Shown piece by piece: positions 9,712 to 43,243 of a stretch of 48,061 nucleotides of DNA (positions are counted from its first letter, which is position 1; every line of letters begins with the position of its first letter). Below the pieces are notes generated by a model, which worked only from the letters and a program-made list of their open reading frames with translations, was not told the DNA's origin and did not search any database. Where the stretch lies: positions 1 to 48,061 of the forward strand of contig RSEH01000321.1 in the NCBI GenBank assembly GCA_006503475.1, given 5' to 3'. Origin of the DNA: Stentor roeselii (taxonomy: Eukaryota > Ciliophora > Heterotrichea > Heterotrichida > Stentoridae). The position numbers and the translations under genes are program-made.

Positions 9712-9724
9712 TTATATTTAACAT

Positions 9725-9877
9725 CCTATATTTAACACCTTAACACCCTATATTTAACACCTTAACACCCTATATTTAACACCTTAACACCCTATATTTA
9801 ACACCTTAACACTCTATATTAAACACCTTAACACTCGAAATTTAACACCCTAAATTTAAAACCTAAATTTAACACCC
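9725..9877 (+). repeat. Telomere-like 22-bp tandem repeat between divergent genes
   Basis: Five units of 22 bp (9725, 9747, 9769, 9791 and 9813) begin CCTATATTTAACACC and continue TTAACAC; the first four are identical. The fifth and shorter degenerate pieces run to about 9877. Each unit contains TTAACACC and TTAACAC(C), one base away from the chromosome-end repeat CCCTAACA. The array fills most of the 188-bp gap between the HIT start (9711, minus) and the coiled-coil start (9900, plus). Confidence 0.9.
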
Positions 9878-32183: not shown

Positions 32184-35100
32184 TTATTTTTCATCATTCT
32201 GATTATTTTTTGATTTACGCTCTCGATATTTTTCAATTAATGATTTAACAGTGAAAACAACCTTCAACAAAGAAACACCATACTGAAAAGCTAATCCAAA
32301 CATGATAATTCCAATAAAGCAAAAATCAAAAACCGTGTCATTTTTAAGAAATTTCCAGAAAATCCTAACGAAAATAATCAGAAAAATCAACATTGTCAAA
32401 AATTCGATTACAATCACAGTGATCATCATTAGTTTATCCTTAAAAGGTCTAATTGTAACAAAATAGTAAAACACTAGAAAAGAAGATATAAGATTGATTA
32501 ATTTTTGAGCTATTTCGTTGTAGCCAAAATAAATCTGATTAACTGTAAAAATAACGCCTCTTAATCCAAGAACGACGTAATAAATAATATGAAAAAATTT
32601 TTTGTCGCAATGAAACTCCTGAAAAAAAGTTCCAAACCTTTTTAGATAATTTCCATCGTTCGAAAAAATTTTCTCTGAACTAGACCACAATTTTATCAAA
32701 ATAATCGCTGGAGACGCCAAAAAAGCAGTCTGAATAAAAATTACTATTAGTATAATTGATGAAACTTTACCAAGTATTGACTGAAAGCACAAAACTTCAA
32801 TATTCTGTCTAAATCTCACAGATTCAAAGTTCAAAAAGGTAAAAAACCCTATGACTAACTGACTTTGAAGCCAAAATCTTAAAAAAACTGAAAATTTGTA
32901 TTTAAATTTAAATTCTTGAAACTTTTGACTAATCTTTCCAAGATTCAACTTAGAAATCAACAACACAATAGGGAAGAGCAAAAGAATTCCAACAAAAATA
33001 GTAATATAAGTTCCAATATTAATCCAAAGGTCAGTAGTTTTAATTCCAATCTTCTTCGCTTGAATGGAAGGAGAACTAGTGAGATCTTTATTCAAATACC
33101 TTGATGGTAAATTGACAGGTGAATAAAAATTTATCAATGCCTTGCAAAACTGATTCACTGCTGGTGTCAATGGATTAGAATTGAGAGGTAAAAAAGCAAT
33201 CATTTGAATGTTATTCTGAAGGACCCAACCAGCTGAAGGGTTCGTCAGCATCGCTAAACAAAAAGAAATAAGACTTGAAGATTGTCCGACAGTTCTCACC
33301 TTTTTAATGATTTCTCTGAAGGTATCGGAAATGTATTCAAATTCGAAAAGATTGACGGTAAAGTTGTATTCGAAGAGAGTTGAATTGTCGTAACTGAAAA
33401 TAACAGGATTCAAGGATACGATAAGACTGGTTCCATTTGAAACACTATCAATGAAGTTCAAAGTTATTATAAACTTTTTATTTGTTTTTTTGAAGAAATT
33501 GAAGGAATCGATACTTTTCGGAGTTTTTACTGAAAAGTTAGAAATTGAGAAGTTTCCTTGAAGTGGCTTGCTGAATGTGAGTTTAATTTTGTTATTAGCA
33601 GAAATGCTAACATTTAAAGTGAAGTATTTAATGGTGCATGTTTCATTGATTTTTGTGTATCCTTTAAGACATTCGCACACTCCATCAATTAATAGCTCAT
33701 AGGGCCCACAAATTAAATGACAAGAATTTTCGAATTCAATGAATCCAGGATTGCAGTTTGTGCATTTAAGTTGATCTGAATTTAAAACACAAGTATTACA
33801 GTTCGGAGGGCAAGGTTGACACCTTCTCTCAATTAAATGAAAACCTTTTTTACATTCACAGTTTTTCTCAAGATTGATTTCTGAGTTAATATCATTGCAT
33901 TCTTTGCAGAAGTTTAAATTTTCACATGTCTTGCATTCAGCTAAGCATCTCAAACATTGAAAATTATTTGAATAGTCAGGAAAAAAACCATCGGAGCATT
34001 TGCATCTGCCAGTTTCATCCAAGTAGGAGTTTTTGTACTTGCAACTAGTACAGTTTGAATGATTGTTGCATGTTTTGCATTCATCTAAGCACTTCAAGCA
34101 TTGAAAGTTATTTGAATAGTCAGGAAAAAAACCATCTAAGCATTTGCATTTTCCTGTTTTATCCAAGGATGAGTTTTCGTATTTACAACTAGTACAGTTT
34201 GAATGATTGTTGCATGTTTTGCATTCATCTAAGCACTTCAAACATTGAAAGTTATTTGAATAGTAAAGAAAAAAACCGTCTAAGCATTTGCATCTGCCAG
34301 TTTCATCCAAGAATGAGTTTTCGTATTTGCAACTAGTACAGTTTGAATGATTGTTGCATGTTTTGCATTCATCTAAGCAGTTTAAACATTGAAAGTTATT
34401 AGGATAGTCAATAAAAAAACCATCAAAACATTTACATCTACCAATTTCATCCAAGTATGAGTTTTCGTATTTACAACTAGTACAGTTTTCCTGATACTTG
34501 CATGTTTTGCATTCATTTAAGCACTTCAAACATTGAAAGTTATTTGAATAATCAAGAAAAAAACCATCTAAGCATATGCATCTGCCATTTTCATCCAAAT
34601 ATGAGTTTTCGTATTTGCAACTTGTACAATTTTCGTGATACTTGCATGTTTTGCATTCATCTAAGCACCTTAAACATTCAAAATTTTGTGAATAGTCAAG
34701 AAAAAAACCATCTAAGCATTTGCATCTGCCATTTTCATCCAAGTCTGAGTTTTCGTATTTGCACCTAGTACAGTTTGCATGATACTTGCATGTTTTGCAT
34801 TCATCTAAACAACTCAAACAGCTGAACTCAGGTTGACTATTCAAAAAGTACCCATCAATGCATTCACATCGATTATTCGTAGGCTCTCCTTTGACACATT
34901 CTAAGCAAACTTTTTCTGAGGTACAAGCTACACATTCATTAGGACAAGGAGCACATGAACTGCTAATATCAGGATGATTCACCGCATAATATCCTCTTCT
35001 GCAACGACATCTGTGACTTTCATCAAGTTCAGCGAATGAATCAATACAAGAAGTGCAGGTGTTTTTCGACAAGCACGATTTGCATTCATTCATACATTTT

Positions 35101-36179
35101 CCGCATTTAATATAGACATTATAAAAAACTTGATCATTGAAGAACCCTTCATTACATGTGCAGGTGTTGTTAATGAAAACAGAATTATTATCATAGCAGC
35201 TTAAACATTCCCCACTATTCATGCACGAACACCCAAAAGCGCAACATCCTTGTCCTGATGCCTCACAATCTGAAGATATAGGTAAAATGATGTTATTTAT
35301 ATAGTCTATGCACTGTGCTTGGCCATTCAAGTCAAGAGTGCAAGATTTGGAAGGACACAAGCAGTTTATCACTAATGAACCTTTACAGGGTATTTTACTG
35401 CAAACTTCACCTAAAGCATTTTTAGTTATATCTGAAGACTTAGGGACACAACCAATTCCAAGGTCTTTTAAATTCATGGAAGGGTTGCAATTGCAGGTTC
35501 CAATAAAGCAGTTGTTAGAAGTTGTGGAAGAAATGTAGTTAAAGTGTTGGTTTGCACCAGAAATTATTGCAAAATACCACATGAAATACTTTATTGACTT
35601 GTATTTGTAATATCCTATTATAAAATTTTGGCATTCATCACTGAGATTTATGGTTGAAGTTAAGAGGCTATTGTAGATAACAAGATTATTCATTCTAAAG
35701 GTCAGGGTGTTAGAATTGATTTCGTATGAAAGTAAAACCCAATCGTCTAAATATTTATTACAGGTAGGGATTAAGGTTTTCAAATTGGAGAATAATGATT
35801 GTTTTTGAAAGGCCCAAAGATGGAAAGTATTTGAATCATGTCTGTGAACACCTATAAGATAAGAATTGCAATACCTGACAATTATTTGTCCAATCAGGTT
35901 ATCCATGCTTATCCAAAAAAGTATTGTAAATGGGTTTGGAAGGACAAAAGACTGAGAAAGTTCATTTGGAGGAAGCGTGATCATATTATTTTCGCTCATA
36001 AAAAGACCTCTATCAGTGATAATCACATCTCCTGTTGAATTTTGCAAAGAAATTCCATTGACTGCATGTCTTCTATTAAGTGAATAGTCAAAAAGCACCT
36101 GCCCATAGTTTTTCCAAAACTTATACTCAACTTCTACCTGCCCAAATGAAGAAGCGATCATAAGAAAAACAAAAGCCAT
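32184..36179 (-). CDS. Giant cysteine-rich repeat surface protein with C-terminal multi-TM domain
   Basis: The 1331-aa protein begins with a signal peptide (MAFVFLMIASSFGQ). Residues about 20-230 look like a LamG/concanavalin-like beta sandwich (GDVIITDRGLFMSENNMITL). Residues 230-820 are cysteine-rich, EGF/furin-like, including six near-identical 48-aa repeats of the form CLDECKTC-CTSCKYENS-LDE-GRCKC-DGFF. A beta-rich linker (about 825-960) precedes about seven TM helices (about 1010-1310). A charged cytoplasmic tail ends KNNQNDEK. The layout is that of large ciliate surface or GPCR-like proteins of unknown ligand. No introns are needed. Confidence 0.85.
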   Translation of the reverse strand: MAFVFLMIASSFGQVEVEYKFWKNYGQVLFDYSLNRRHAVNGISLQNSTGDVIITDRGLFMSENNMITLPPNELSQSFVLPNPFTILFWISMDNLIGQIIVRYCNSYLIGVHRHDSNTFHLWAFQKQSLFSNLKTLIPTCNKYLDDWVLLSYEINSNTLTFRMNNLVIYNSLLTSTINLSDECQNFIIGYYKYKSIKYFMWYFAIISGANQHFNYISSTTSNNCFIGTCNCNPSMNLKDLGIGCVPKSSDITKNALGEVCSKIPCKGSLVINCLCPSKSCTLDLNGQAQCIDYINNIILPISSDCEASGQGCCAFGCSCMNSGECLSCYDNNSVFINNTCTCNEGFFNDQVFYNVYIKCGKCMNECKSCLSKNTCTSCIDSFAELDESHRCRCRRGYYAVNHPDISSSCAPCPNECVACTSEKVCLECVKGEPTNNRCECIDGYFLNSQPEFSCLSCLDECKTCKYHANCTRCKYENSDLDENGRCKCLDGFFLDYSQNFECLRCLDECKTCKYHENCTSCKYENSYLDENGRCICLDGFFLDYSNNFQCLKCLNECKTCKYQENCTSCKYENSYLDEIGRCKCFDGFFIDYPNNFQCLNCLDECKTCNNHSNCTSCKYENSFLDETGRCKCLDGFFLYYSNNFQCLKCLDECKTCNNHSNCTSCKYENSSLDKTGKCKCLDGFFPDYSNNFQCLKCLDECKTCNNHSNCTSCKYKNSYLDETGRCKCSDGFFPDYSNNFQCLRCLAECKTCENLNFCKECNDINSEINLEKNCECKKGFHLIERRCQPCPPNCNTCVLNSDQLKCTNCNPGFIEFENSCHLICGPYELLIDGVCECLKGYTKINETCTIKYFTLNVSISANNKIKLTFSKPLQGNFSISNFSVKTPKSIDSFNFFKKTNKKFIITLNFIDSVSNGTSLIVSLNPVIFSYDNSTLFEYNFTVNLFEFEYISDTFREIIKKVRTVGQSSSLISFCLAMLTNPSAGWVLQNNIQMIAFLPLNSNPLTPAVNQFCKALINFYSPVNLPSRYLNKDLTSSPSIQAKKIGIKTTDLWINIGTYITIFVGILLLFPIVLLISKLNLGKISQKFQEFKFKYKFSVFLRFWLQSQLVIGFFTFLNFESVRFRQNIEVLCFQSILGKVSSIILIVIFIQTAFLASPAIILIKLWSSSEKIFSNDGNYLKRFGTFFQEFHCDKKFFHIIYYVVLGLRGVIFTVNQIYFGYNEIAQKLINLISSFLVFYYFVTIRPFKDKLMMITVIVIEFLTMLIFLIIFVRIFWKFLKNDTVFDFCFIGIIMFGLAFQYGVSLLKVVFTVKSLIEKYRERKSKNNQNDEK
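33962..34825 (-). repeat. Six 144-bp (48-aa) coding repeats
   Basis: The DNA repeats with a 144-bp period, encoding a cysteine-rich module that starts CLDECKTC. Three adjacent copies share the variant CKTCNNHSNCTSC and are almost identical at DNA level, indicating recent duplication or gene conversion. Flanking modules on both sides are more diverged. Confidence 0.85.
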
Positions 36180-36373
36180 TAATTATAAGTCTAAAATCTC
36201 AAAATTTCCAGAATTTTCTAGAATGCTTACACTTCCCATAAAAAATCTTTAGATGTTTAAGTCAGGGATGTTTTACTGATGATCCTTATGTAATTTAAAC
36301 TTTTTTTCATTACTTTCAGATGAACTTATAATCAATTTTCCTATGATAAATCAAAATGATGAGAATAATTTTG

Positions 36374-41724: not shown

Positions 41725-42752
41725 CTAATATCCCCACTTTTGATATATGCACTCAGGGTACCGTGATTTCCATCTTCTTGCATACTTGCCATCATTACTT
41801 TTGTCAGACTCACCATCTTGAAACTTCTCGAGCTCCTTCGTTTCTAGGTTCCAAACTTCCACTAAGGAGTTGATACAGACTTCTATATTTTTTACCTAAG
41901 TGTAGATTACGTTCTTCATATTGGTTACTTTCTTTATTGTTGATTACTTTCTTAATTGTAGGTTACTGCCTTCAATGTAGGTTACTCACTTAATGTAGGA
42001 TACTGCCTTTAGTTCAGGTTACTCACTTCAATGTAGATTACTGACTTCAATCAACGTTACAATCTTTTTCAAAAATTACCTTACTAGTGATTACAGAAAA
42101 AAGCATATTTTCCGTCGTTGGAAAATTGCAATTCTTGATAGGCTTCCTTAAGCCCCTTTTCTGTAATGCCTTTAGTAATAATATCTCCTAGAGTCTTCAA
42201 GAAGAATTTGAATTTTTCTTCTTTAGTTGACGATTGAAGTTCTAGATAAGAATAACCTATCGCCCTTGTTCTTGATTTTTCTTCTAGGAATGTTAAGCTT
42301 CGTCGAAGACTTTTTATACTTGTGAAAATCTCTTCCTTTTCATCTATTCTATTTATTTGACTTTTATCGCTGATCTTTCCTACTTCATTTTCCAGAAATT
42401 TTATTCTTTCCTTTGAAAAAAGAAATAACCTTAGCTGAGAGACATCCTTAAAGTTCTTTGCTGATGTTTTAAGGTTATTTATTGCACAAGTAGAGGCCTT
42501 TTTCAAGGTTTTGATTACTCTTTGAGTATCAGTTGCCATCTGGAAGATACACTTTTTGATATTTGAATTCAGAATTCTTAAAGATATCGTAATCAATTCC
42601 TTATTTTTTAGGTAATCAGGTTCGTGATCTGTTTCTTTTGTGTGAATTATTGAGTGATTAATGCAAAAATATGTAATTTCAGAGCAATCTGGACACAATA
42701 ATCTGATTTCTGCACGACAGCCATTGTAAGAGCAGGACATCTTTATAGACAT
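41725..42752 (-). CDS. B-box-like zinc finger / coiled-coil / WD40-fragment protein interrupted by a mini-intron array
   Basis: Exon 1 (42095-42752) encodes MSIKMSCSYNGCRAEIRLLC, then PDCSEITYFCINHS with Cys/His spacing of a B-box-like finger, a helical coiled-coil region (about 60-205), and the start of a WD40-type strand (LQFSNDGKYAFF). Exon 2 (41725-41879) continues with a WD40 end (LVEVWNLETKELEKF) and finishes ...CIYQKWGY before TAG. Between them lie 215 bp made of twelve intron-like elements. Removing the block gives 270 aa; removing only the elements gives 279 aa; both are in frame without stops. A full WD40 propeller is absent, so the gene may be a truncated relic. An in-frame ATG at 42740 is an alternative start. 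Confidence 0.55.
41880..42094 (-). repeat. Tandem array of twelve 15/16-nt intron-like elements
   Basis: On the minus strand the block resolves without remainder into twelve GT...AG elements. Positions are 42080-42094 (15 nt), 42064-42079 (16), 42045-42060 (16), 42026-42041 (16), 42007-42022 (16), 41989-42003 (15), 41970-41985 (16), 41951-41966 (16), 41932-41947 (16), 41914-41928 (15), 41896-41910 (15) and 41880-41895 (16). Eleven start GTAA and one GTAT. Elements 1-2 and 11-12 abut; all others are separated by exactly 3 nt (ATT, TCA, TGA, GCA, TGA, GCA, AAA, AAA, AAC). Typical units are GTAACCTACATTGAAG and GTAATCTACATTGAAG. Lengths and ends are those of this genome's introns. Confidence 0.85.
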
Positions 42753-42895: not shown

Positions 42896-42999
42896 TTTAG
42901 ATTTGAAAGTAGTTGAATTCTTAGACCATGTAGACTACTTAGGATGATTTAGATTTGAATTTAGTTGAATTATTAGACCATGTAAACTACTTAGGATGA
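42896..42999 (+). repeat. 52-bp direct tandem duplication
   Basis: Two adjacent 52-bp units (42896-42947 and 42948-42999) share TTAGATTTGAA, then GTTGAATT, TTAGACCATGTA and ACTACTTAGGATGA, with only a handful of differences. It lies about 145-250 bp upstream of the start of the mini-intron-array gene. Confidence 0.85.
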
Positions 43000-43243
43000 T
43001 AAGCATTCTTGAATTTTACTTAAACATTTTCCACTAGGTTACGGCTAATACCTTATTATTAATACTGTTATAGAGTATAATGAAATTTATTATAATTTAA
43101 TACTTTGAGATGAATTGATAATTTGAATCAAATGCCCGAGTATCTGAAAAAATATCTTTTAAGTACCAGAAATCGAAAATATTGTTTCTGTGACTAATAA
43201 AAAATTTCATTCAGATAATTATTCTTTACAATTAAACACACTT

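Follow-up and report, generated by a model that had tools for sequence, protein, structure and literature searches.

The micro-exon gene (MEG) family of Schistosoma mansoni, which encodes variable proteins, is built of many very short exons in series, most with lengths divisible by three (PMC10526429). MEG exons are mostly 15 bp, with a range given as 6 to 81 bp in the text of the paper and 3 to 81 bp in its abstract, the introns span 100 to almost 5000 bp, and the products are secreted and alternatively spliced (PMC10526429). Isolated micro-exons of 1 to 3 nt show that spliceosomes join exons of that size (PMC4674806). In the heterotrich ciliate Stentor coeruleus, the annotated introns are 15 to 16 nt only, with GT..AG ends, 93% of them being 15 nt; the branch point is position 10 in 15-nt introns and position 11 in 16-nt introns (PMC9505925). 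A single intron is usual among the intron-bearing genes of that species, and whether those with over eight are all spliced was left uncertain by the authors (PMC9505925). The heterotrich Blepharisma has introns of 15 to 16 bp and reads TGA as Trp (PMC9942806). Recursive splicing proceeds through ratchet points, AG|GT junctions with a zero-length exon between two introns, and subdivides long introns. New introns are also known to arise by copying, through tandem duplication (PMC4974935) or as introner-like elements, near-identical introns found scattered through many unrelated genes.

MEGs, micro-exons of 1 to 3 nt, recursive splice sites, and 15-nt introns are thus each already known. The locus presented here, from Stentor roeselii, carries an array that we read as real spliceosomal mini-introns of 15 to 16 nt lying between one-codon exons; the splicing is inferred from the sequence, and we put the probability of this reading at about 85%. 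Like the MEGs, it belongs to a family in which very short exons, with lengths mostly divisible by three, would follow one another and the proteins vary, but most exons here would be a single codon, the array elements are 14 to 16 nt, and the array would code for one loop. The elements share length and GT..AG ends with the S. coeruleus introns, and their frequent A at position 10 fits the branch point published for the 15-nt class; unlike those introns, they are mostly 16 nt and occur 6 to 20 to an array. The abutting AG|GT junctions recall ratchet points, except that each half would be a complete intron of 15 to 16 nt, and the known 1- to 3-nt micro-exons are isolated rather than arrayed. In contrast to introners and intron-gain duplication, the copied unit would be an intron plus one codon, copied in place and within one family. 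Searches of mainly open-access papers turned up no account of one-codon exons arrayed between introns of 15 to 16 nt. To our knowledge, this would, if spliced as proposed, be the densest packing of introns. Similar arrays may also be present among the S. coeruleus genes annotated with over eight introns.

The array in the window gene

The window is the whole 48,061-nt stretch analyzed, contig RSEH01000321.1 of assembly GCA_006503475.1. On its minus strand, the segment 42094..41880 was parsed with zero remainder into 12 GT..AG elements separated by nine 3-nt spacers and two zero-length junctions (Table 1), exactly as a prior sequence-only reading had laid it out, and the parse of the gene bore out the phase 1 end of exon 1, with one spare T, that had been proposed there. 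The array reaches further than that reading had it, with the codon TCT and a 13th element, GTATCAACTCCTTAG, extending it to 41862. By homology, the 13th element is a predicted intron, since paralogs carry 15 or 16 nt at the same place with an unchanged flank. Its use in the window copy is uncertain, because the A at position 10 (A10) is replaced by C and retention would also leave the frame open. A10 was present in 11 of the 13 window elements. Unspliced, the frame of the gene meets a stop after 222 codons.

The array did not arise by chance: a two-element pattern matched seven times in the window, always within the array, compared with 0.03 matches per shuffle. Directly upstream of the ATG of the window gene, a 52-bp tandem repeat occupies window positions 42896-43000.

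Table 1. Features of the window gene, listed from 5' to 3' on the minus strand after the whole-gene row; intron and exon assignments are predicted
Feature	Position	Strand	Remark
Whole gene, first ATG to stop	41725..42752	-	274 aa with 13 introns out and all micro-exons in
Exon 1, from the Cys/His-rich N-terminus through the middle region to ...ELQFSNDGKYAFF plus spare T (phase 1)	42095..42752	-	
Cys/His-rich, B-box-like N-terminal stretch	42615..42737	-	By eye; Pfam match none
Array of 13 introns and 10 three-nt exons, with zero-nt junctions at two places	41862..42094	-	
Intron 1, 15 nt, GTAATCACTAGTAAG	42080..42094	-	
Intron 2, 16 nt	42064..42079	-	Abuts intron 1 (AG|GT)
Micro-exon ATT	42061..42063	-	
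Intron 3, 16 nt	42045..42060	-	
Micro-exon TCA	42042..42044	-	
Intron 4, 16 nt	42026..42041	-	
Micro-exon TGA	42023..42025	-	TGA not in frame; bases read as A|TG A
Intron 5, 16 nt	42007..42022	-	
Micro-exon GCA	42004..42006	-	
Intron 6, 15 nt	41989..42003	-	
Micro-exon TGA	41986..41988	-	
Intron 7, 16 nt, GTAACCTACATTGAAG	41970..41985	-	Frequent interior form in the family
Micro-exon GCA	41967..41969	-	
Intron 8, 16 nt	41951..41966	-	
Micro-exon AAA	41948..41950	-	
Intron 9, 16 nt	41932..41947	-	
Micro-exon AAA	41929..41931	-	
Intron 10, 15 nt	41914..41928	-	
Micro-exon AAC	41911..41913	-	
Intron 11, 15 nt	41896..41910	-	
Intron 12, 16 nt	41880..41895	-	Abuts intron 11 (AG|GT)
Micro-exon TCT	41877..41879	-	
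Intron 13, 15 nt, GTATCAACTCCTTAG	41862..41876	-	C at position 10; least certain; from paralog comparison
Last exon: (L)EVWNLETKELEKF...RRWKSRYPECIYQKWGY stop	41725..41861	-	

Arrays in the genome and the gene family

The sequence-only reading had proposed a search of the whole genome for runs of such elements. In the 44.4-Mb assembly, a three-element pattern gave 170 matches against 22 for the reversed control, and a four-element, 16-nt-only pattern gave 71 against 1, these figures being overlapping pattern matches rather than arrays. When the three-element pattern was given spacers of 4 nt, the genome yielded 0 matches (control, 2), and with spacers of 2 nt it yielded 1 (control, 18). Since 3-nt spacers were abundant while 2-nt and 4-nt spacers were near zero, the spacing is tied to three.

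Among the matches listed, 39 of 41 array sites adjoined a match of the window gene's family, the remaining two being C53:601 and C288:142426; beyond the sites listed, other genes may carry arrays as well. Exon 1 had 130 related stretches in its own genome at E ≤ 0.001, and the C-terminal module had 116 matches at E ≤ 0.1, most of them limited to one side of an array. The window gene is a member of a large family sharing the array architecture. The stretches around the arrays (L031 to L082, then L083 to L102) usually had one layout: exon 1 ending ...SNDGKYxFF with a single T added; a first pair of abutting introns; ATT (or ATC); intron-plus-codon units in varying number; a second pair of abutting introns; one codon; the last intron; and a last exon encoding (L)xVWNLE...RxWKxRYPECxYxxWGY and a stop. 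In the 38 arrays retained from a wider parse (see below), zero-nt junctions occupied the first position in 35 and the penultimate position in 35, with four elsewhere. These arrays held 6 to 20 introns each, and their 429 elements measured 15 nt (165), 16 nt (256), or 14 nt (8), the GT..AG ends and element lengths being requirements of the scan. Most elements were 16 nt and ended in AAG. The loop differed in length and sequence in nearly every copy.

The arrays were concentrated toward contig ends: 34 of 40 tabulated arrays lay at most 15 kb from one, compared with 16.6 expected from uniform placement on their own contigs. Beyond those 40, the site C23:6488 lies near an end and C288:142426 does not. 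This placement suggests that the family is subtelomeric, bearing in mind that the contig ends are not all telomeres.

Reading of the spacers as codons

Across 42 runs, 383 of 386 spacers were 0, 3, 6, or 9 nt, with the elements varying freely between 15 and 16 nt; the arrays had been found by a 3-nt pattern and the element matrix trained on them, and the scans with 2-nt and 4-nt spacers are independent of that choice. In the 25 of these runs with complete anatomy, the spacers joined in phase 1 contained 0 stops in 239 codons, as against 8 in 215 in phase 0 and 24 in 240 in phase 2. Shuffling the order of the spacers within these arrays gave a mean of 12.1 stops and a minimum of 4 in 2000 shuffles. 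A wider parse of 44 arrays, in which elements alone were scored and no frame information was used to place introns, was reduced to 38 by dropping 6 after viewing (5 mis-anchored, 1 duplicate). It gave 2 stops in 411 codons, compared with a shuffled mean of 18.6 and minimum of 10. With all 44 included, stops occurred in five arrays, and the exon lengths failed to sum to a multiple of three in four; the sum was divisible by three in 36 of the 38 kept and 40 of the 44 overall. As the copies are paralogs of shared ancestry, the tests on arrays are not fully independent trials.

A further signal came from the second junction codon, which straddles two neighboring micro-exons, taking its first base from the end of the former and its other two from the start of the latter. 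It encoded Tyr, Phe, or Trp in 32 of the 38 arrays (TAT 10, TAC 9, TGG 6, TTC 4, TTT 3), and in the set of 25 it was aromatic in 22, compared with 51 of 131 other spacers read alike (Fisher P = 4.5e-6). The DNA of this codon varies and its amino acid class is kept, as a constraint at the level of a predicted protein would have it. The block length modulo 3 was mixed (9, 13, and 16 of the 38 arrays for remainders 0, 1, and 2), so unspliced copies could not keep the frame. With the micro-exons included, the distance from the KY to the VW residues was 10 to 30 residues (median, 14), and with them excluded it was always 5. Four WD40 stretches of this genome that lack introns (L084, L085, L086, and L093) have 11 residues at the corresponding place, as counted by eye, an example being NF-VISGSEDKIVK-VW.

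Odd exon lengths were seen in L051 (5 nt), L053 (2 nt), and L060 (2 nt), and in-frame stops in L060 and one L031 copy, the latter probably owing to a lost AG. All four look like broken copies, and L060, with 20 introns, may illustrate an array after loss of constraint. Taken with the multiples of three, the open phase 1, and the constrained junction codons, the proposal of the sequence-only reading that mini-introns alternate with retained 3-nt micro-exons gains strong support, and the spacers are very probably one-codon exons.

Character of the predicted mini-introns

An A at position 10 was found in 90% of the 15-nt and 86% of the 16-nt array elements, so that the conserved A of the 16-nt elements lies at 10 and not at the 11 published for S. 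coeruleus (PMC9505925). A frame-based scan for ordinary introns in 21 stretches yielded 10 candidates at 15 nt and 9 at 40 nt; a GA..TG control reached 11 at one length, so the 15-nt count alone is indecisive. The composition of the 15-nt set, rather than its size, speaks for introns, with A10 in 9 of 10 and a TAG end in 8 of 10.

The contig ends in AGGGTGTT repeats, a permutation of the Blepharisma telomere (PMC9942806). Frames of up to 1332 codons in the window are free of TAA, TAG, and TGA, which points to the standard genetic code, as is implied for Stentor (PMC9505925). A telomere-like tandem repeat of the TTAACACCC type also occurs inside the contig, at window positions 9713-9876, and a 144-bp repeat of 6.2 copies (33925-34820) lies within the 1332-codon minus-strand frame 32184-36182.

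Proposed splicing and its alternatives

In the proposed mechanism, each intron of 15 to 16 nt would be recognized singly, by intron definition, and the introns would be removed one by one, each 3-nt exon simply being added onto the upstream exon as it lengthens. Where two introns meet at AG|GT with no exon between them, they would be taken out in succession, in a manner resembling recursive splicing: removal of the first would leave exon 1 abutting the GT of the second. If the array is spliced in this way, about a dozen introns would be accommodated in ∼230 bp with one-codon exons and exonless intron junctions. It would then test the minimum substrate of the spliceosome, whether splicing is strictly sequential, and how exon or intron definition operates where snRNP footprints must overlap neighboring introns. 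Gene finders that disallow 3-nt exons would miss or truncate such genes.

Two alternatives concern how the transcript is cut. Micro-exons might be real yet spliced partially or variably, giving many loop isoforms per gene. The dense, similar splice signals would permit errors, and the last intron of the window gene lacks A10 and could be retained in frame. We nevertheless consider this unlikely, since the elements are fixed at 15 to 16 nt and skipping of a micro-exon would require an intron of 33 to 35 nt, retention of a 16-nt element would shift the frame, and exon skipping was argued to be possibly absent in S. coeruleus (PMC9505925). A less probable alternative, to which we give little weight, is excision of the entire block as a single long intron or chain of introns, a minisatellite having grown inside an intron, with the 3-nt spacers never entering the mRNA. 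The array units are indeed repeated and related, and excision of the whole block from the window gene also preserves the reading frame, as the sequence-only reading had stated. It would, however, leave unexplained the avoidance of stops in phase 1, the aromatic second codons, and the multiples of three. It would also shorten the hairpin to 5 residues, against 11 in the intron-free WD40 hairpins, and require an intron unlike the annotated 15- to 16-nt introns of S. coeruleus (PMC9505925).

It is very improbable that a single intron seeded the array as a minisatellite while the gene was dying and unexpressed. Tandem Repeats Finder does report a degenerate 19-bp repeat at the array, and breakage is plain in a few copies (L051, L053, L060). 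A noncoding minisatellite would, however, be expected to have spacers free in length and sequence, in place of the near-uniform multiples of three, and the frame is maintained across divergent copies, with the junction codons kept. The window gene and most of 25 compared copies are open to a similar C-terminus. The dying gene, put forward in the sequence-only reading as its own alternative, is thus not supported: because the window gene is full length and its ends match those of its paralogs, it is very probably an intact gene encoding 274 aa. Least credible of all is that the 15- to 16-nt pieces are DNA removed during nuclear development, like internal eliminated sequences (IES). Ciliates do excise short intragenic DNA segments, but the contig ends in telomere repeats, as somatic DNA would, and the elements share GT, A10, and AG with the 15-nt ordinary intron candidates of their own genome.

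The predicted protein

Joined in phase 1, the 3-nt exons would encode the loop YFMSMSKKKLL between the conserved strands KYAFF and EVWNLE, as part of a WD40-like β-hairpin at the C-terminus of the 274-aa protein. The sequence-only reading had seen a WD40 strand continued downstream of the array; this held for one hairpin and not for a full propeller, the hairpin being followed by the stop. A search for several WD40 blades in the family found one hairpin only before the stop. A profile search matched RACK1 weakly (best E, 0.008), and among 22 members a single one matched Pfam PD40 (E, 0.098). A Pfam scan of two proteins gave no match to the B-box zinc finger at E ≤ 1 and no family above its cutoff; we take the N-terminal Cys/His spacing simply to resemble a B-box. 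The window protein, compared with a set of 5.8 billion proteins, drew 899 candidates, none at E ≤ 0.001. In the 22 members, each Pfam match was confined to one member, and these matches were taken as chance; the best, Integrase_DNA (E, 2.6e-4), fell below its cutoff. Gene models built at 11 loci by maximizing open reading frame length were also set aside, as they kept some introns as coding sequence, represented another gene at L047, and ended before the array at L044; array exons from these models were left out of all results.

The frequent location near contig ends, the upkeep of the frame, and the variability of the loop in both length and residues together suggest that the loop may be a recognition surface under diversification.

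Possible multiplication of the units

Pairwise identity of elements was too weak a measure to prove tandem duplication (0.81 for adjacent elements, 0.80 within the same array, and 0.77 between arrays), and exact intron-plus-codon units were compared instead. Identical adjacent units were found in 5 of 179 cases, in L039, L046, L051, L058, and L060. Shuffling units among arrays gave a mean of 0.3 and a maximum of 3 in 1000, and shuffling within arrays gave a mean of 2.1 and a maximum of 5. The tandem duplication suggested by the sequence-only reading was thus upheld in part: adjacent identical units exceeded the shuffle among arrays, but adjacency added little to the relatedness within an array. 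Duplication of units within arrays has some support, though weak; the units are related within arrays and may have been copied from the immediate neighbor.

Each intron-plus-codon unit gained or lost would add or remove one residue and leave the frame unchanged. Tentatively, and at somewhat less than even odds, the units may act as cassettes for single loop residues, which are gained, lost, and reshuffled in a family located near chromosome ends, with duplication or deletion of a unit tolerated because its intron is spliced out. If so, a minisatellite would have become a means of frame-safe, residue-by-residue diversification of a recognition loop. It would also provide a concrete route of intron gain, one that diversifies a loop one residue at a time without a frameshift.

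Variant arrays

Some family members depart from the one-codon pattern. L076 has only six introns and an 18-nt exon (YFRNLEIYL), open in phase 1, and exons of 24 nt in L072 and 27 nt in L075 occupy the same place in paralogs, both also open in phase 1. Array elements of 14 nt with GT..AG ends, below the 15 to 16 nt of the lineage, occurred in L040, L041, L060, L071, L072, and L074 and possibly in L034. In L034:3200-4300, a single gene has about 50 element matches (52 when the threshold is permissive), with an exon of ∼80 nt inside and some units apparently lacking AG or GT. A second array type was seen at L049:1175-1718, with abutting intron pairs alternating with single codons (0, 3, 0, 3, ...); it apparently belongs to a neighboring family member, and its parse meets stops. 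Several of L094 to L100 keep the layout and the 0/3/6-nt exon logic with very different element sequences, some having 14-nt elements followed by CAG. Such divergence of the elements under a kept layout speaks against simple copying of a minisatellite as the full explanation.
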